Assembly (NCBI RefSeq): GCF_000023885.1
Contig: NC_013165.1
Location: 2,046,001-2,110,000 of the forward strand
From: Slackia heliotrinireducens DSM 20476
GTDB taxonomy: Bacteria > Actinomycetota > Coriobacteriia > Coriobacteriales > Eggerthellaceae
Length of the DNA: 64,000 nucleotides
Reading direction: 5' to 3'
The notes beneath the pieces were generated by a model, which saw only the letters and a list, made by a program, of their open reading frames with translations, was not told where the DNA came from and made no database searches. Positions 7,944 through 21,546 of this stretch are shown one piece after another (within the stretch, counting starts at the first letter, position 1; the number at the start of each line of letters is the position of its first letter). The translations under genes and the position numbers were made by a program.

Positions 7944-8885
7944 ATGCAGGGCCTTGAAATCTCGAAGGCGTATTTCGACGAGTACGGCATGCCGATGCTT
8001 CGCGAGCAGTTCGGCGATTTGATGCCGCACCTGGCAGCTGGCCTGTTCGGCAGCGGGTCGGAATGCTTCGGATTCGACGACGAGTTGTCCCGCGACCACG
8101 ATTTCGATCCGGGGTTCATGTTGCTGCTGCCCGGCGAAGACGTCATCGACCGTAAGCAGGAGTTCGCCTTAGAGCGCGCCTACGCCAAGCTGCCCAAGGA
8201 GTTCATGGGCGTGAAGCGGCCGATGCTCGCCCCGGTTGGCGGCGCCCGCCGAGGCGTGCTGCGCGCCGCGGACGTGTTTAGGGAGAAGACGGGAAGCCCC
8301 GACGGTATCCTCACCGTTGAGCAGTGGCTCACGACCCCTTCCCACGCGCTGGCCGAAGCCGTCAACGGGCGTGTCTTCTTCGACGGGTCGGGCGAGGTCA
8401 CCCGCATCCGCCAGCGTCTTTCCCGCTACCCCGAGGACATCCGCCGCAAAAAGCTGGCGGGACACTTGCTTTCCGCAGGTCAAGCGGGGCAATACAACTA
8501 CCGCCGCTGCCTGGACCATGGCGAGTCCGCAGCAGCCCAGCTGACGGTTTTTTCCTTCGTGCAAAGCGCCATGGAGACCGTCTTTCTGCTTAACAACGTC
8601 TACCAGCCCTTCTACAAGTGGCGGTTCCGCGCAATGCGGGCCCTGCCGAAACTGGCGTTGGATGCGGAGCTTTTCGAATACCTGCTCACCACCCACAACG
8701 ATGGCGACCTTGCCGAAGAGAAACTCCAGGTCATAGAGGGTATAGCTGCCGACCTTATCGAAGAGCTGCAGGCCCAAGGCCTCACTCGGGCAACCTGTGG
8801 CGATTTGGAGAAGCATGCGTATTCCGTCAACGACGGAATCGTCGACGGGGATATCCGCAACCTGCACATCCTGGCTGGTGTATAA
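7944..8885 (+). CDS. DUF4037 protein with nucleotidyltransferase-like N-terminus
   Basis: 313-residue protein. The N-terminal region GLFGSGSECFGFDDELSRDHDF reads like the GS...DxD core of nucleotidyltransferase folds, and the overall layout (SRDHDFDPGF, then a C-terminal all-helical part with NNVYQPFYKWRFRAM) is what I know as DUF4037. The substrate of this family is not established. Preceded by AGAAAGGA and by the TPR gene; probably one transcript. The C-terminal helical half resembles substrate-binding domains of aminoglycoside-type nucleotidyltransferases, but that is inference. Confidence 0.8.
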   Translation: MQGLEISKAYFDEYGMPMLREQFGDLMPHLAAGLFGSGSECFGFDDELSRDHDFDPGFMLLLPGEDVIDRKQEFALERAYAKLPKEFMGVKRPMLAPVGGARRGVLRAADVFREKTGSPDGILTVEQWLTTPSHALAEAVNGRVFFDGSGEVTRIRQRLSRYPEDIRRKKLAGHLLSAGQAGQYNYRRCLDHGESAAAQLTVFSFVQSAMETVFLLNNVYQPFYKWRFRAMRALPKLALDAELFEYLLTTHNDGDLAEEKLQVIEGIAADLIEELQAQGLTRATCGDLEKHAYSVNDGIVDGDIRNLHILAGV

Positions 8886-15353: not shown

Positions 15354-16427
15354 TTACGCGTACCCCTGCGTCATGAGGTTCCAGCTGCCCTCTCCCTGGG
15401 TGCGGCCGAGTATCCACTGGTAGTCGTTGTAGTCCGCATCGGCCTCGAACACAAGCTCGCCGATTTCCTTGGGCGTATGGAAGTCGGAAAGGAGCACGAG
15501 AGCCTGGTCGAATTCCGCCGCATCGGGCATCTGCGCCTCGCGCAGCTCGTTGACATAGGCTACGTTGTCTTCGCACGTCTGGTCATCGGTAAAGGCGATG
15601 CGCTGCAACGTGACGCCTTCCCAACCGCTGACCATGGCCAGAATCGGATCGAGGGCGCCGTCGATGTCGGTCTCTTCGAATACCTGGGACGTTCCGTAGT
15701 CGACCGTGCAATCCGCCACCATCGGGTCGAGCGCGTCCAGATAGCGCTCGTAGGTAATGCCCTGGTCGGTGATTTCCCGCGCCATGTCGGGATCGTCCAG
15801 GTAGCGGATGTGCCAAGGTTCGTAACTGTACCCGGTCTCGATCTTCTTCTTAGGCAGATAACGCAGGATGAAACCGTGGTCGGCAAGCTTTGCATGGATT
15901 TTCGCCCAGACCTCAGGGTATTGGACCATGTCCTCGTTCATGTACACGTCTTCGCCGTCGATGATCAGATAGAGGTCGAGCGCAAGCCCGGTGTGATGCT
16001 CGGAGTAGCCGGGCGTCGCCACATGCAGCTTGGTGTACTCTTCGCCGTAATCCTTGGTGAAATCATCCCAGATGCGCTGCTGCTCGGCAATGGGGCGGAA
16101 TGCGGAATCCAGGTCCACATACACGCCGTCGGCCTCCAAATCCGCCTTAAGCTCCAGGTAGGCGGCATAGGCCTTCTTCTCGACATCGACGTCCCATCCT
16201 GCGGTGTTGGTGAAATGCTCAAGTTCGATGGCCTCTTCCCAACCATCCGGAAGCTTGTTCTGCTTGTTGACGAGCACCGTGTAGTCGATGCCGTCGGCCT
16301 CCGCAGAATCAGCTTTATCGTCAGCGGCCTCGTCACCGGTTTTCCCAGAGCAGCCCGCCAGCGCCGCAGCGCCCAACGACACGCCCATGAGCGAAACGAA
16401 CGTTCTTCTGCTAAAAAAGTTAATCAT
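15354..16427 (-). CDS. D-Ala-D-Ala carboxypeptidase-like lipoprotein (M15, VanY/DacB type)
   Basis: 357-residue exported peptidase. Start at 16427 is supported by GGAAAGG upstream. The signal SRRTFVS is a twin-arginine motif followed by a hydrophobic stretch and lipobox ALAGC, so it is a Tat lipoprotein. The peptidase core shows SAFRPIAEQ, PGYSEHHTGLALDL (zinc-ligand His and Asp), and EPWHIRY (third zinc ligand His), the M15B signature. A C-terminal extension of about 130 residues after the catalytic domain is unusual and I do not recognise it. Role: trimming peptidoglycan stem peptides at the cell surface. Confidence 0.9.
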   Translation of the reverse strand: MINFFSRRTFVSLMGVSLGAAALAGCSGKTGDEAADDKADSAEADGIDYTVLVNKQNKLPDGWEEAIELEHFTNTAGWDVDVEKKAYAAYLELKADLEADGVYVDLDSAFRPIAEQQRIWDDFTKDYGEEYTKLHVATPGYSEHHTGLALDLYLIIDGEDVYMNEDMVQYPEVWAKIHAKLADHGFILRYLPKKKIETGYSYEPWHIRYLDDPDMAREITDQGITYERYLDALDPMVADCTVDYGTSQVFEETDIDGALDPILAMVSGWEGVTLQRIAFTDDQTCEDNVAYVNELREAQMPDAAEFDQALVLLSDFHTPKEIGELVFEADADYNDYQWILGRTQGEGSWNLMTQGYA

Positions 16428-16604
16428 GCCACAACCTTTCCCCATGGGTTAACTCAGGCAGATTATACTCAAACGCCCCATTCCGCGAAACTCGAAGCGT
16501 TCGGGGGCTCAAGCGGCTGTTCGAATGCGGTCGACACGGATGAAAACCGACGTCGTCTCGGGAAGTTCGGCAGACGCGCCGAGCAAAGCGATTCCCCAGA
16601 AACG

Positions 16605-16955
16605 CTACTCGGAAGCCGCGGTATAGAGTTCGGGCCTGTAAGCCACAGCCCAATCCCGCAGCTTGCAAAGTATGGGAACCAAGCTTTCACCGGCTTCGGA
16701 CAGGCAGTATTCCACCTTCACGGGCATAGTGTCATACATGGTGCGCACGACCAGACCATCTTCCTCAGGCTCCCGAAGCGAGGATGCGAGCATGGTAGGG
16801 CTTACGCAGGCCACCAAGCAGGACCTTCTGGACGCTTCGGCCGACGACATGGTGACGATGCAGCCGTTGGGCTGTGCATCGGCACGGGCCGTGGCGAACA
16901 CAACTGCGTCCACTTTTGCGAACAGCTCCTGGGCTTCTTCCGGGGTTTTTGCCAT
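16605..16955 (-). pseudogene. Chimeric ORF: pyridoxamine-oxidase-like N-terminus joined to HxlR regulator C-terminus
   Basis: 116 codons starting at 16955 after AAGGAG. The first about 36 residues (TPEEAQELFAKVDAVVFATA and on to NGCIVTM) read as the N-terminus of a pyridoxamine 5'-phosphate oxidase-like protein. From residue 48 it becomes VSPTMLASSLREPEEDGLV then VKVEYCLSEAGESLVPIL, the winged-helix wing and C-terminal helix of an HxlR-family regulator. The recognition-helix half of the regulator and the rest of the oxidase are missing. The simplest account is an in-frame deletion between two adjacent minus-strand genes. Whether the product does anything is unknown. Confidence 0.65.
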
Positions 16956-16978
16956 CCGTCGAAACTCCTTAGCAATAC

Positions 16979-17056
16979 GAATTCCGTACCAACAATGGCA
17001 CACGGATTACAAGGCTGGCTTAATTAGGCAGTTTAACTGGATATGGTACGGAATTC
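16979..17056. repeat. Inverted repeat pair GAATTCCGTACC / GGTACGGAATTC
   Basis: Twelve-base arms at 16979-16990 and 17045-17056, 54 bases apart, flank the upstream region of the chimeric ORF. The left arm overlaps the promoter side of that ORF. They may be paired operators of the lost HxlR regulator, or the scar of the rearrangement. Confidence 0.5.
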
Positions 17057-17059
17057 CGT

Positions 17060-17157
17060 AGCGCATCGCCGCCGCCAACCATCAGCCGCAACGGTTCTTC
17101 CTCATCCGCGGCGAAAGCGATAGGGGCTGCATCTCCAAACTTGCCGAACTTCTAACC
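17060..17157 (+). pseudogene. Nitroreductase gene remnant
   Basis: About 32 codons reading RIAAANHQPQRFFLIRGES then a degraded SKLAELLTV, without start or stop of their own. This matches residues around 33-66 of the intact nitroreductase at 14704-15228 (RIAPTAANYQPQRFFLIRSD ... LAKLKTV), and the DNA identity is visible over CCGCAACGGTTCTTCCTCAT. The rest of the gene is gone; the LysR gene on the other strand ends inside it. Confidence 0.6.
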
Positions 17158-18087
17158 GTTGCGTTCGACGGCAGAATCGTCTTGCAGGACGCTCGGCGAC
17201 TCACCGCTGATGGATTCCTGGGCATACGCATCTTGCGCTATCTCGAGAAAGCGCGGGACCAATCCCCCGCGCTTGACGTTGCGAACGAACGCCCCGTAAG
17301 TAGCCTGGGGACTGTTCCGCCAGATGAGCGCCTTCTGGTGCGGATCGGGCATGGTCTCGACGGCGGGTATGAGCGCGTACCCGAAACCTGCATCCACCAG
17401 GCAGAACGCTTCGGTCGTCGTCGAGCAGACAATGGTTTGGGACTGGCTGGTTTCAGGAAACGTGCCCTGGGCCAGCGAGCCTTTCCTGCGGATGTTCGCA
17501 GGAAGGCATATAACCTGCGAAAACCCCTCTACCTCCTCGTGTCCGACCTCGTCGTATTCGGCCAGGGGAGAATCCTTGCGCACAACGCAGCTGAGTCCGC
17601 TCGTATGCAGCGGCCGAAACAGGATTCGCTCCGACTCCGCCGCATCGCTCTTGAAACCGAGCACGATGTCGAGCTGCTCCCGCAGAAGACGGTCGATGTT
17701 GGCATCGCGGGGGCCAAGGCTCAGTGTCACATGGAACCCTTCGTAATCCTTGCGAAGCATGTCAAGCACAACGGACAAGCGCATCAGCTCGTTGGGGTCG
17801 GAGTATCCTATGGCCAGTTCCACACCTTCGGCCTTCTTGCGTGCCCGCTCCGCGGCGGCATAGGTCATGCGCAGGATCTCACGGGCATCGGGCAAAAACG
17901 AAACGCCGAGCGGCGTCAGCAGCACCTCTCTGGTCGACCGGGTGAACAGGGCCCCGCCTAGCTCATCCTCCAACGATGCGACCTGCTTCGATACCGTCGG
18001 CTGCGACAAATGAAGCTCATCGGCCGCACGCCGGAAGTTCAGGTTGTCGGCCACCTGCACGAAGCATTCCAATTGGGTTGTGTTCAT
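17152..18087 (-). CDS. LysR-family transcriptional regulator
   Basis: 311-residue LysR regulator. ATG at 18087 is preferred to a GTG two codons upstream because AAGGTG is correctly spaced from it. N-terminal helix-turn-helix: LECFVQVADNLNFRRAADEL then LSQPTVSKQVASLEDELG; the rest is the usual periplasmic-binding-protein-like effector domain (SVVLDMLRKDYEGFHV onward). It is divergent from the RiPP precursor at 18220, with a perfect dyad between them, so it is the likely regulator of that locus. Confidence 0.93.
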   Translation of the reverse strand: MNTTQLECFVQVADNLNFRRAADELHLSQPTVSKQVASLEDELGGALFTRSTREVLLTPLGVSFLPDAREILRMTYAAAERARKKAEGVELAIGYSDPNELMRLSVVLDMLRKDYEGFHVTLSLGPRDANIDRLLREQLDIVLGFKSDAAESERILFRPLHTSGLSCVVRKDSPLAEYDEVGHEEVEGFSQVICLPANIRRKGSLAQGTFPETSQSQTIVCSTTTEAFCLVDAGFGYALIPAVETMPDPHQKALIWRNSPQATYGAFVRNVKRGGLVPRFLEIAQDAYAQESISGESPSVLQDDSAVERNG

Positions 18088-18124
18088 ATTCACACCTTAC
18101 CAACGATTTATTCTATAATCGCAT

Positions 18125-18219: not shown

Positions 18220-18441
18220 ATGTCCCTCGACCGTTTCGCATCCTGGAACAATGCCCGTTCCGCCTCTTCCGCATGCGGCGCTTCTGATGGCCGCAGCGCA
18301 TGCGGTGCCTCCGACGGCCGCAGTGCCTGCGGTGCTTCGGATGCCTTCAGCTCCGCCTGCGGCGCCAACGACCTGCGCCCCTCCGCTTGCGGCGCATCCG
18401 ACGGCCGCAGCTCCGCCTGTGGCGCATCCGACCGCTTCTAA
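18220..18441 (+). CDS. RiPP precursor peptide with six Cys-X3-Asp repeats (ACGX-repeat type)
   Basis: 73-residue peptide, start at 18220 after AAGGAA. A short leader (MSLDRFASWNNARSASS) is followed by six near-identical repeats ACGASDGRS / ACGASDGRS / ACGASDAFSS / ACGANDLRPS / ACGASDGRSS / ACGASDRF. Cys at 19, 28, 37, 47, 57, 67 and Asp at 23, 32, 41, 51, 61, 71, so every Cys is followed by X3-Asp. A radical SAM/SPASM enzyme follows 66 bases downstream. I recall such pairs being named the ACGX system in NCBIfam. The C-X3-D spacing equals that of freyrasin, where PapB links Cys sulfur to the Asp beta carbon; six thioethers are therefore predicted here. No double-glycine cleavage site is seen. 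Confidence 0.88.
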   Translation: MSLDRFASWNNARSASSACGASDGRSACGASDGRSACGASDAFSSACGANDLRPSACGASDGRSSACGASDRF

Positions 18442-18458
18442 ACGAAGCACACCAGACA

Positions 18459-18491
18459 AGGGCGCCCTCTTCAAGAAGGGCGCTCTTTTTC
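18459..18491 (+). terminator. Attenuating hairpin between precursor and radical SAM gene
   Basis: Ten-base-pair stem (18459-18468 with 18477-18486, one G-U pair), eight-base loop, then CTTTTT. Placed right after the precursor, it would make precursor mRNA more abundant than mRNA for the modifying enzyme, the usual stoichiometry in RiPP operons. Confidence 0.7.
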
Positions 18492-18507
18492 GAAAGGAAA
18501 CCACCGT

Positions 18508-19662
18508 ATGGCACGTCCGACCTTCTCGTTTCAGTGGCACCTCCTCGACGACTGCGACCAGCGCTGCAAGCACTGCTACATCTTCTCGGGGGACGAAAAC
18601 GAGGAACTCAACCGAATGAGCTTCGAGCAGATGCAGCAGACGCTCTCCAATATCGAGGATTTCTGCGAGACCTTCGGGCGCGAGCCGTACCTCTACATCT
18701 CCGGCGGCGACCCCATCCTGCATCCCGACTTCTGGAATCTGATGGACCTGCTCAAAAGCAAGGGTATCCGATTCACTATCATGGGCAACCCGTTCCATCT
18801 GACAGACGAGGTGTGCGAACGCCTGCATGACAGCGGCTGCGTGCGCTATCAGATGTCGATCGACGGCAACCGCCAAACCCACGATTGGTTCCGAAAGCCT
18901 GGATCGTACGACGAGACGCTGGCACGCATCCCCATGCTTGCCCGCCACGGCATCCGTTCCATCATCATGACGACGGTTTCCGACGTGAACGCCGCCGAGC
19001 TGCCCGAAATCATCGACGCCGTGGTCGAAGCGAAGGCAAACGCGTTCGCCTTCTCGCGTTACGTTCCGACCTTGGGCGAAAACATGGACGGCCTCTCCCC
19101 TCTCGAATACCGCGCCGTGCTCGACCGCGCCCACAAGAAGTTTACGGCCTACGAGGAATCGGGCTGCGAAACCTATTTCAACCGCAAAGACCACTTGTGG
19201 CGCCTTTACGAATGGGAAGAAGGGCTCTGGTCGATTCCGGGCAATGCCGAAGAAGGCATCATCTACGACGGGTGCAACTGCGGAAGCGGACATCTGACCA
19301 TCCTTCCCACCGGCGACGTATACGCCTGCAGGCGCGTGGCCGACTCCAAGGTGGGAAACGCCTACGAAAATCGCCTTGCCGACATTTGGCTGAACTCCAT
19401 GGAAGACTACCGCCAGATCGATGAGTTCTCCAAGTGCAGCCGATGCGAGCTTTTGGCCTGGTGCCGCGGATGCCCGGCCGTGGCCCGCGGAACCGACGGA
19501 AGCTTCTACGGCGAAGACCCGCAATGCTGGCATGAGGTTCCCGAAACGGGCGATCGCAGGCCCGTGCTGCAGATGCCGGCCGAAACGTCCGGTTGCGCCT
19601 GCGGCGCCGTGGACCGCATGGTCGCCAACATCGAAGCGGCACTCGAAAGGACGGTGGCGTAG
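18508..19662 (+). CDS. Radical SAM/SPASM peptide maturase
   Basis: 384-residue radical SAM enzyme predicted to modify the adjacent Cys-X3-Asp peptide. The SAM-cluster motif is Cys16-DQR-Cys20-KH-Cys23; YLYISGGDPILHPDF is the GGE-equivalent (here GGD) motif. The C-terminal SPASM region carries auxiliary-cluster cysteines in YDGCNCGSGHLTILPTGDVY, then ACRRV, CSRCELLAWCRGCPA and a later CW. A last CACG near residue 368 is extra. Start follows GAAAGGAAA. By analogy with PapB it would form sulfur-to-carbon thioether bonds; that chemistry is inference. Confidence 0.9.
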   Translation: MARPTFSFQWHLLDDCDQRCKHCYIFSGDENEELNRMSFEQMQQTLSNIEDFCETFGREPYLYISGGDPILHPDFWNLMDLLKSKGIRFTIMGNPFHLTDEVCERLHDSGCVRYQMSIDGNRQTHDWFRKPGSYDETLARIPMLARHGIRSIIMTTVSDVNAAELPEIIDAVVEAKANAFAFSRYVPTLGENMDGLSPLEYRAVLDRAHKKFTAYEESGCETYFNRKDHLWRLYEWEEGLWSIPGNAEEGIIYDGCNCGSGHLTILPTGDVYACRRVADSKVGNAYENRLADIWLNSMEDYRQIDEFSKCSRCELLAWCRGCPAVARGTDGSFYGEDPQCWHEVPETGDRRPVLQMPAETSGCACGAVDRMVANIEAALERTVA

Positions 19663-20646
19663 ATGCCTTCCGAAACCATGCGCGCACTCGTGATCGAAGA
19701 CGTCACGCCGGCGGCGGCCGCGCGCCTTTCCACCGTGCCCGTTCCCGAGGTCAAGCCTGGCTGGGCGCTCGTCCGCGTCCGCGGCTTCGGCATGAACCAT
19801 TCCGAACAGGTCGTGCGGCTGGAAGAAATCAAGCACGACTACATAAAACATCCGGTCATCCCAGGCATCGAGCTTGTCGGCGAAGTCGAGGTCCCTTCCG
19901 ATTCGGGGCTTGCCAAAGGGCAGAAGGTCTGCGCGCTCATGGGAGGCATGGGTCGCAGTTGGGACGGCTCGTACGCCGAATACTGCCTCGTGCGCACCAA
20001 CCGCTTGTTCGCAATTCCCGACTCGGCCCGCGAACTTCCCTGGTCGAAGCTGGCAGCCGTTCCCGAAACGTTCTTTACGGCCTGGGGGTCGCTTTTCGAA
20101 GGGCTGCAGATCTGCCCCGACGACCGCCTGCTCATCCGCGGCGCGTCCTGCGGCTTGGGCTATGCTGCAATTCAGCTGGCGCACGCGCTCGGGTGCACGG
20201 TCGTCGCGACCACGCACAGGGAGAAGTACCGCGCAACCCTCGAACGCTTCGGCGCGGACACGGTTATCGTCGATAGCGAAGGATCCCTTGCTGAACAGGG
20301 CATACAGTCCGACAAGGTGCTCGAGCTGATCGGGGCTGCCACGCTGCGCGATTCGCTGGGCCTGCTCGCTCCAAAAGGCATCTGCTGCCACACGGGCATC
20401 TTGGGCGGAGCGGAGCAGCTCGAAGGGTTCGACCCCATAAAAGACATCCCCAACGGAAGGTATCTGACCGGCTTCTTCTCAAACTACCCGACGCAGGAAA
20501 CTATAACCGCCATCTTCGAGTTCGTGGTGGAACACGGCATCGAGCCGTACGTCGCCGAGGTCTTCAGCTTCGACCGTCTGACTGACGCAATCGCCCTTCA
20601 GGACGAAGGCGGTTTCCAGGGCAAGCTTGTGGTCGTGGACGAATAG
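19663..20646 (+). CDS. Medium-chain (quinone-oxidoreductase-like) dehydrogenase in RiPP locus
   Basis: 327-residue MDR-superfamily NADPH-dependent oxidoreductase; start abuts the maturase stop. Segments GFGMNHSEQVVRLEEI, HPVIPGIELVGEVE, and the Rossmann loop RGASCGLGYAAIQLAHALG (normally GASGGVG) fit the family; structural zinc cysteines are absent. ATG at 19678 is an alternative start. Immediate adjacency to the maturase suggests co-transcription, but a role in peptide maturation is not established; it may use a small molecule. Confidence 0.85.
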   Translation: MPSETMRALVIEDVTPAAAARLSTVPVPEVKPGWALVRVRGFGMNHSEQVVRLEEIKHDYIKHPVIPGIELVGEVEVPSDSGLAKGQKVCALMGGMGRSWDGSYAEYCLVRTNRLFAIPDSARELPWSKLAAVPETFFTAWGSLFEGLQICPDDRLLIRGASCGLGYAAIQLAHALGCTVVATTHREKYRATLERFGADTVIVDSEGSLAEQGIQSDKVLELIGAATLRDSLGLLAPKGICCHTGILGGAEQLEGFDPIKDIPNGRYLTGFFSNYPTQETITAIFEFVVEHGIEPYVAEVFSFDRLTDAIALQDEGGFQGKLVVVDE

Positions 20647-20658
20647 CGAGGTGCGCCC

Positions 20659-21546
20659 ATGGGTGTCGAGTCGAAAACGCTGTTCAAGGTGGACGTGGAC
20701 CGCTGCATCCGCTGCGGGCGGTGCGTGAACGTCTGCTCGGGCATGGTGCTCGAGCGAGGTCGGGACCAAACGCCGCACATGCTGCCCTTCGAACGCTTCG
20801 GCTGGAAAGGCTGTTGGCGGTGCGAGCATTGCCTTGCCGTGTGCCCCGTGGGGGCCATCTCGATATTCGGGAAGGACCCGTCCGACTCGTCGTCGCCCGC
20901 CCCGCCTGAGGCCGCCGATCATCTGGAACGGCTGGTGGCCAACCGCAGAACCTGCAGGCGCTACCTGGACAAAGACGTGGACCCGACCATCGTCGACAGC
21001 ATTCTGGACGCCATGCAGAACGTGCCCGCCGGCGGAAACGCCCAAAACACCGAATACACCGTGATCGATTCGAAAGAACGGATGGACCGCATTCGAGAAA
21101 GCGCCTATGCCGCCATGGAGCAGGCGGCGGCAGAAGGCCGCTATACTTCGAGCTTCGACGCGTTCTATTACCGCAAGATGAAACAGTCGGAGGCAACGGT
21201 GCGCAAAGGCGACCTGCTTTTCTGCGGAGCTCCGCACCTGTTCGTAGCGCACGCGAAGGCCACGGGCCGCTGGGCCGACGATTACGCCGTCAACTGCAAT
21301 CTGGCCACAGCCTATTTCGAGCTTTTGGCCAACGCCCACGGCTTGGGCACCGCCATCATGAGCTATCCGTCCGACGTGCTCAACGAGCTTGCGCCCGAAG
21401 CTCGCGCCATGCTTGGCATTCCCGCCGACCACTACATGAAGCCTGTCGTCGGGTTCGGTTACCCCGAGATCCCCTATGCCCGCGGCGTGCGGAAAAACCG
21501 CCGCAAAGTGCATCGGTGGTCGAAGTACGCCGAATCGGGCATCTAA
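20659..21546 (+). CDS. Ferredoxin-nitroreductase fusion protein
   Basis: 295-residue fusion. Residues 1-75 are a two-cluster 4Fe-4S ferredoxin domain with Cys16-IR-Cys19-GR-Cys22-VNV-Cys26 and CWRCEHCLAVCPVG; residues about 90-295 are an FMN nitroreductase domain (LVANRRTCRRYLDKDVDPTI, GGNAQNTEYTVI, and ELLANAHGLGTAIM). Such fusions move electrons from low-potential carriers to flavin in anaerobes. It lies 12 bases after the dehydrogenase, so the order is peptide, maturase, dehydrogenase, ferredoxin-flavoprotein; it could feed electrons to the maturase clusters, though that is inference. Confidence 0.9.
   Translation: MGVESKTLFKVDVDRCIRCGRCVNVCSGMVLERGRDQTPHMLPFERFGWKGCWRCEHCLAVCPVGAISIFGKDPSDSSSPAPPEAADHLERLVANRRTCRRYLDKDVDPTIVDSILDAMQNVPAGGNAQNTEYTVIDSKERMDRIRESAYAAMEQAAAEGRYTSSFDAFYYRKMKQSEATVRKGDLLFCGAPHLFVAHAKATGRWADDYAVNCNLATAYFELLANAHGLGTAIMSYPSDVLNELAPEARAMLGIPADHYMKPVVGFGYPEIPYARGVRKNRRKVHRWSKYAESGI

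Follow-up and report, generated by a model that had tools for sequence, protein, structure and literature searches.

The acgA-acgM locus

Slackia heliotrinireducens RHS 1T is an anaerobe of the sheep rumen (PMC3035243) with a genome of one contig (3,165,038 bp), from which we analyzed a stretch of 64,000 nucleotides (G000:C1:2046001-2110000; hereafter, the window). A gene for a repeat peptide of 73 residues, acgA (18220..18441, plus strand), is followed there, after an intergenic gap of 66 bases, by a gene for a radical SAM/SPASM maturase of 384 residues, acgM (18508..19662, plus strand). The translation of acgA, MSLDRFASWNNARSASSACGASDGRSACGASDGRSACGASDAFSSACGANDLRPSACGASDGRSSACGASDRF, contains six repeat units on the plus strand, at 18271..18288, 18298..18315, 18325..18342, 18355..18372, 18385..18402 and 18415..18432; the fourth reads ACGAND and the other five ACGASD, and in each an Asp lies four residues past the Cys. 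The initial annotation had described six ACGA(S/N)D repeats in a peptide of 73 residues, encoded just upstream of a radical SAM/SPASM protein, which proved correct to the base, and the Cys-X3-Asp spacing that it reported holds for 6/6 Cys. Its Gly-Arg-Ser spacer stands for three of the five inter-unit spacers (in order GRS, GRS, AFSS, LRPS and GRSS), with AFSS and LRPS departing from the pattern. The leader, MSLDRFASW, is short, and its M1, L3 and W9 are invariant in an alignment of four precursors. Neither a double-glycine nor a signal sequence is present in the precursor, the lack of a double-Gly site having been remarked on in the initial annotation as well.

The six-unit array of acgA is not a chance pattern. 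When the peptide was shuffled 20,000 times with its composition preserved, six C-x3-[DE] motifs were reached 0 times and the maximum was 4. Across the whole genome, a DNA pattern for two adjacent CGxxD units matched the acgA locus only, as five overlapping pairs, and the reversed pattern, used as a control, gave 0 matches. Pairwise codon differences between the units were synonymous in 51 cases vs non-synonymous in 5, indicating that the protein sequence is under selection.

Between acgA and acgM lies a G+C-rich hairpin with a T run after it (18458..18490, plus strand; fold z -2.4), a structure that a simple terminator scan did not list and that is probably an attenuator or a processing site. 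Hairpins occupy the equivalent position in two relatives, L006 (z -3.8) and L007 (z -2.9). Given the hairpin and T run between the genes and the similar hairpins in these relatives, the cell probably makes more of the acgA product than of AcgM.

Downstream, a zinc-type (MDR) dehydrogenase/quinone-reductase-like gene (19663..20646, plus strand; PF00107/PF08240) abuts acgM and precedes a 4Fe-4S ferredoxin-nitroreductase fusion (20659..21546, plus strand; PF00881 and Fer4 domains) that is probably the last gene of the operon. The order is therefore acgA-acgM-zinc-type dehydrogenase-ferredoxin/nitroreductase, with a divergent gene for a LysR-type regulator (17152..18093, minus strand; PF00126/PF03466), the probable controller of the acg operon, on the other side. 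Beyond it stands a gene for an HxlR-type regulator (16605..17003, minus strand; PF01638) related to the redox regulators RrpA/RrpB, although its score against NF047367 (43.9 bits) is below the cut-off of 185. Upstream of the ACGX locus lies a gene (15354-16445, minus strand) for a VanY-type D-Ala-D-Ala carboxypeptidase, the N-terminus of which is lipoprotein-like.

Sequence and structure of AcgM

AcgM has the full set of ten cysteines that bind the clusters in a SPASM protein: C16/C20/C23 for the radical SAM cluster and, by alignment, C256/C274/C322 and C310/C313/C319/C340 as putative ligands of the auxiliary clusters AC1 and AC2, respectively. C274 opens a C274-R275-R276 motif in which conservation of R276 is at least 90%. 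The closest solved fold to the AlphaFold model of AcgM (pLDDT 89, pTM 0.85) is CteB (Z 26.4), with anSME and SuiB less than one point behind; matches to CteB, SuiB, SkfB, anSME, ChlB and PqqE fall at Z 21-26. AcgM has no RRE at its N-terminus before the radical SAM domain, the model beginning in the barrel and aligning to CteB from residue 92 on only.

Near the C-terminus of AcgM, in a low-confidence part of the model, the sequence ACGAVD (19597..19614, plus strand) resembles a substrate unit. The tail reads CACGAVD in Slackia, CACGAAD in L007 and, in degenerate form, CACAAAG in L006; it is possibly autoinhibitory or a fused remnant.

The ACGX family and its distribution

The acgA-acgM pair is a RiPP system of the ACGX family (TIGR04340/TIGR04341), as the initial annotation had it. 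AcgM scores 659.7 bits against TIGR04340 (cut-off 400), with 340 of 341 positions covered, and residues 1-72 of AcgA score 34.9 bits against TIGR04341 (cut-off 28). The RefSeq gene names acgA and acgM are already used in Roseburia sp. 831b, and the Slackia locus is like the rest of the family in gene order and motif, with no difference in kind; its ACGASD-GRS units are common to two close relatives, L006 and L007. A search for the ACGX family found no paper in the library covered, and the family is not known to have a characterized product.

Close relatives of the Slackia locus occur in two actinobacterial MAGs and in Mitsuokella, and further relatives are carried on plasmids of Roseburia, Subdoligranulum and the archaeon Methanosphaera. 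We found acgM above the cut-off in 28/395 genomes of the order to which the window belongs, none of them another genome of its genus, and in 9/398 genomes of the Mitsuokella phylum; the viral contigs and phage records searched held no ACGX relative. From the plasmid copies and the patchy spread we infer that ACGX is a mobile, patchily distributed system. In a tree of the enzymes, the Slackia acgM groups with those of L006 and L007 at full support, with L084 as nearest neighbor at lower support. One reversed locus, L106 (acgM from about position 8410), has in-frame TAG and TGA stops with a shortened precursor alongside and is in decay.

Two cousins of AcgM lie beside peptides of other kinds. 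In L101 the cousin (41% identity) precedes the gene for an 89-aa peptide with a Nif11-type leader (L101:9404-9670) and the core GGCVCICCAHNCARICAR, a different Cys-rich RiPP candidate; the core CVCICCAHNCARICAR of this Nif11-type peptide is acid-free. The cousin in L121 has downstream of it a gene for a 91-aa Cys-rich peptide (L121:9151-9423), the leader of which has a weak Frankia_peptide-type match below the Pfam cut-off.

A conserved substrate unit

Our set of precursors, 37 in number with 198 Cys in all, is weighted toward Coriobacteriia, and repeats within one peptide cannot be counted as independent. The Cys-x3-acid rule is conserved across the set. The residue following Cys is Gly in 195/198 cases (98%; 37 precursors), and the residue at +4 is acidic in 153/198 (77%; 145 Asp, 8 Glu). 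Among the 45 Cys that lack an acid at +4, 36 come first in a tandem CGxxCGxx[D/E], a unit commonest in Bacillota; the remaining nine comprise seven from Methanosphaera (Glu at +3), one within a leader and a single Asp-to-Ala change. With the first Cys of tandem pairs and the one archaeal precursor set aside, the acid is found at +4 in 153/155 Cys. These counts define the family unit as small residue-Cys-Gly-x-x-acid, and the spacers between units are free to vary (GRS, KPEEKPA, PAP, PKSG and others). We saw no sign of selenocysteine, or of an in-frame TGA, in place of a Cys, either in precursor stop codons or in downstream frames. At the Methanosphaera plasmid locus (L044:6661-8013), where 7/7 units have Glu at Cys+3, acgM is split by a frameshift, and the locus retains genes of the zinc-type dehydrogenase, HxlR-type and 4Fe-4S kinds.

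Recurring neighbors of ACGX loci

We mapped the neighborhoods of 47 AcgM homologues, of which 23 loci formed a full-context set (a precursor, at least 5 kb on each side, 8-kb reach). Within 8 kb, these 23 loci have genes for HxlR regulators (15), zinc-type dehydrogenases (11), PNPOx-4Fe-4S proteins (11), SirTM (9), Zn-macrodomain proteins (9), LysR regulators (8) and nitroreductases (8), and 21/23 have at least one zinc-type dehydrogenase, nitroreductase or PNPOx-4Fe-4S gene. None of these neighbors was found over the same span at homologue loci without an ACGX precursor (0/4). Domain calls at ACGX loci gave HxlR proteins near RrpA/RrpB (below the cut-off), protein-ADP-ribose hydrolase (over the cut-off), nitroreductase, and PNPOx plus 4Fe-4S. 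The Slackia HxlR gene (16605..17003) clusters with HxlR genes of other ACGX loci, and LysR or HxlR adjoins most of these loci. The zinc-type dehydrogenase adjoins acgM in many relatives, those in Mitsuokella and Methanosphaera included, and relatives of the ferredoxin-nitroreductase adjoin a few other ACGX loci.

The sirtuins at ACGX loci carry TQGDY, the His-to-Gln change of the ADP-ribosylating SirTM class, in 15/16 cases. In the window's order, a SirTM relative is present in 26/31 acgM-bearing genomes vs 150/364 others (Fisher P 5e-6, ignoring kinship), and in 12/26 genomes with both, SirTM lies within about 8 kb of acgM. Slackia has its SirTM-type sirtuin at G000:C1:2336786-2337667, approximately 272 kb from acgM, with none beside acgM. 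The genes chained to acgM are mostly those for soluble oxidoreductases, SirTM and the macrodomain; no transporter, protease or immunity gene recurs near ACGX loci, and no gene in the co-directional chains is predicted to encode a transporter. A search of the open frames in ACGX loci for a GcvH-like lipoyl motif found none, and no GcvH-like protein turned up at these loci.

Possible chemistry of AcgM

PapB, the maturase of the ranthipeptide freyrasin, links Cys to Asp or Glu by a thioether within Cys-x3-Asp/Glu units, and it also accepts other spacings (PMC9413430). Given the strict +4 spacing and the acid in ACGX precursors, which support a PapB-like thioether, our leading proposal, in line with the six-fold Cys-to-Asp thioether peptide inferred in the initial annotation, is that AcgM installs one Cys-to-Asp/Glu thioether ring per unit, although by our judgement (this is not a calculation) the chance of its being right falls slightly below one half. 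The occurrence of both Asp (145) and Glu (8) at +4 fits the acceptor range of PapB. The two systems are also alike in having six Cys-x3-Asp motifs in the precursor and a SPASM enzyme with three clusters, but AcgA has a Gly after every Cys whereas the minimal unit of PapA is CSAND. In the enzymes the AC1 spacing is alike (18 residues between C256 and C274 in AcgM; 352-370 in PapB), and R276 of AcgM, two residues past AC1 Cys274, occupies the position of PapB Arg372, which is essential and lies two residues past C370 (PMC9413430, PMC10470005). AhbD/NirJ-type homologues have C-G-Y/F at that AC1 site and not C-R-R. We rejected R276 as proof of an acid acceptor, however: C-R-R is kept in the L101 cousin, beside which lies a candidate peptide whose cysteines have no acid among them, and R276 is therefore not diagnostic. 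It also fits a thioether that the best structural match, CteB, is a thioether maturase, but its lead over anSME and SuiB amounts to a tie.

Should AcgM act like PapB, it would, having no RRE, recognize its substrate through the short MxL(x5)W leader, the repeat unit or both. A 5'-deoxyadenosyl radical would form at C16/C20/C23, and the enzyme would then abstract a hydrogen next to the carboxylate of the acid four residues past each Cys. The Cys sulfur, bound on an auxiliary cluster, would join that carbon to close one thioether ring per unit. We consider these steps, from binding through the radical to ring closure, to be moderately likely.

Several observations sit less comfortably with the thioether. 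Profile comparison of the maturase with the two families that the initial annotation had named placed AcgM over the ACGX cut-off but not in the PapB family, since it scored 66.4 bits against the PapB model NF047865 where the cut-off is 340. The outcome that the initial annotation named as refuting its reading, a maturase in a clade with unrelated substrates, is half borne out, in that AcgM is not of the PapB family and lies nearest, among the other curated families, to SbtM, a maker of thiooxazole. PapB differs from AcgM in having an N-terminal RRE, in the position of its radical SAM Cys (residue 119, vs 16 in AcgM; PMC10470005) and in its AC2 motif, which is CX2CX5CX3C where that of AcgM, CX2CX5CX2C, is one residue shorter; the ACGX loci differ further in their redox neighbors. 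In the precursors, Gly at +1 (195/198) is stricter than the acid at +4 (153/198). Where units are in tandem, the leading Cys of the pair retains its Gly but has no acid at +4, so that a pure thioether leaves such Cys unexplained.

The invariance of Cys-Gly, which extends to the first Cys of tandem pairs and makes the dyad the most invariant feature of the precursors, speaks instead for the idea that AcgM acts like SbtM and converts each Cys-Gly to a thiooxazole, so that the peptide would carry a series of reactive mercapto-heterocycles. On this account AcgA would be the anaerobe's counterpart of the captophorins, copper/oxidative-stress peptides with EGKCG repeats that are products of nonheme-iron MNIO enzymes, and the Asp would set the repeat register or aid metal binding. 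SbtM forms a thiooxazole with the loss of four hydrogens (PMC11002830) and, like AcgM, acts on peptide Cys; AcgM is closer to it (160 bits) than to PapB (66 bits), SbtM being the best-scoring other family (160.4 bits) and one that matches 34/34 members scanned. The captophorin makers offer a parallel: their preferred site is a Cys-Gly dyad, their substrates are repeat peptides linked to metal/oxidative stress, and an Arg in the enzyme recognizes a substrate Glu (PMC12668002). The captophorins/bufferins are like AcgA in their Cys-Gly repeat, the acid in register and the metal/redox-stress link. Their enzyme class (MNIO) is unrelated to AcgM, however, and works with an RRE partner. The score of AcgM against SbtM (TIGR04082) is also below the cut-off of 350 and covers model positions 197-515 only, leaving the first ~196 unmatched, and, in a further difference from the SbtM/SbtA thio(seleno)oxazole peptides, there is no sign here of an in-frame TGA for a Cys. 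AcgM comes almost as close in score to the heme enzymes AhbD and NirJ, so that nearness to SbtM says little about its chemistry. Moreover, such chemistry does not require an obligatory acid at exactly +4, and no metal-transport gene is prominent among the conserved neighbors. A search of 249 genomes of the Mitsuokella phylum gave no SbtM match, but the controls were also unmatched, making the result uninformative. In our judgement a thiooxazole is a serious rival, if an unlikely outcome, a shade less probable than the broad class of other radical modifications, which we likewise hold to be unlikely: a sactionine at the alpha carbon, a thioether to a non-acid residue, epimerization, or a Cys-Cys link in tandem units. 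SPASM enzymes of an AcgM-like fold perform many chemistries and the tandem CGxxCG units need a second rule, but these modifications give no account of D/E at +4 in 153/155 Cys. We favor the thioether over the thiooxazole, while neither is proven. Given the Cys-Gly-x-x-Asp/Glu rule and its tandem CGxxCGxx[D/E] variants, one mass measurement would separate the two.

Possible role of AcgA

The peptide and enzyme of the ACGX family were already known to annotation, and the new information is their intracellular redox context. Many radical SAM RiPPs are exported, and export is the usual fate of a RiPP. The gene neighborhoods, with their oxidoreductases and no transporter, argue for an intracellular redox role and not for an exported antimicrobial, and we infer that AcgA is an intracellular, redox-linked modified peptide. 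The mature peptide would stay in the cell and work with the adjacent flavin/NAD(P)H oxidoreductases in redox/electrophile stress. The precursor carries neither a double-glycine nor a signal sequence, and no transporter, protease or immunity gene recurs near ACGX loci (distant genes may exist); an exported antimicrobial or signaling peptide seems to us very unlikely.

There is precedent for a small modified protein in such a setting. In the streptococcal SirTM operon, a small carrier of an organosulfur cofactor is bound by a flavin oxidoreductase, SirTM ADP-ribosylates it, probably at Asp27, and a macrodomain protein frees it again (PMC4518038). The extended SirTM/Zn-macro operon (GcvH-L, LplA2, OYE, LLM) resembles about a third of ACGX loci in combining a small carrier, flavin oxidoreductases, a SirTM with the His-to-Gln change and a Zn-macrodomain protein; it differs in that no GcvH-like lipoyl motif is found at ACGX loci and that Slackia is without an adjacent SirTM. 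AcgA is possibly the counterpart of lipoyl-GcvH-L of the staphylococcal/streptococcal SirTM operon. The fuller version of this idea, which we regard as improbable though less so than export, is that AcgA is a new intracellular sulfur carrier which would exchange electrons with the adjacent flavin oxidoreductases, be switched off through ADP-ribosylation by SirTM, perhaps on the repeated Asp/Glu, and be switched on again by the Zn-macrodomain protein. In the SirTM class the catalytic His is replaced by Gln, and the targets of SirTM/Zn-macro pairs outside the lipoyl operon are not known (PMC11490716); if the idea is true, AcgA would give such pairs a target. More broadly, the recurrence of the same neighbors across Actinomycetota and Bacillota, and in part on an archaeal plasmid, suggests that ACGX loci are a mobile redox-stress module of the gut and rumen.
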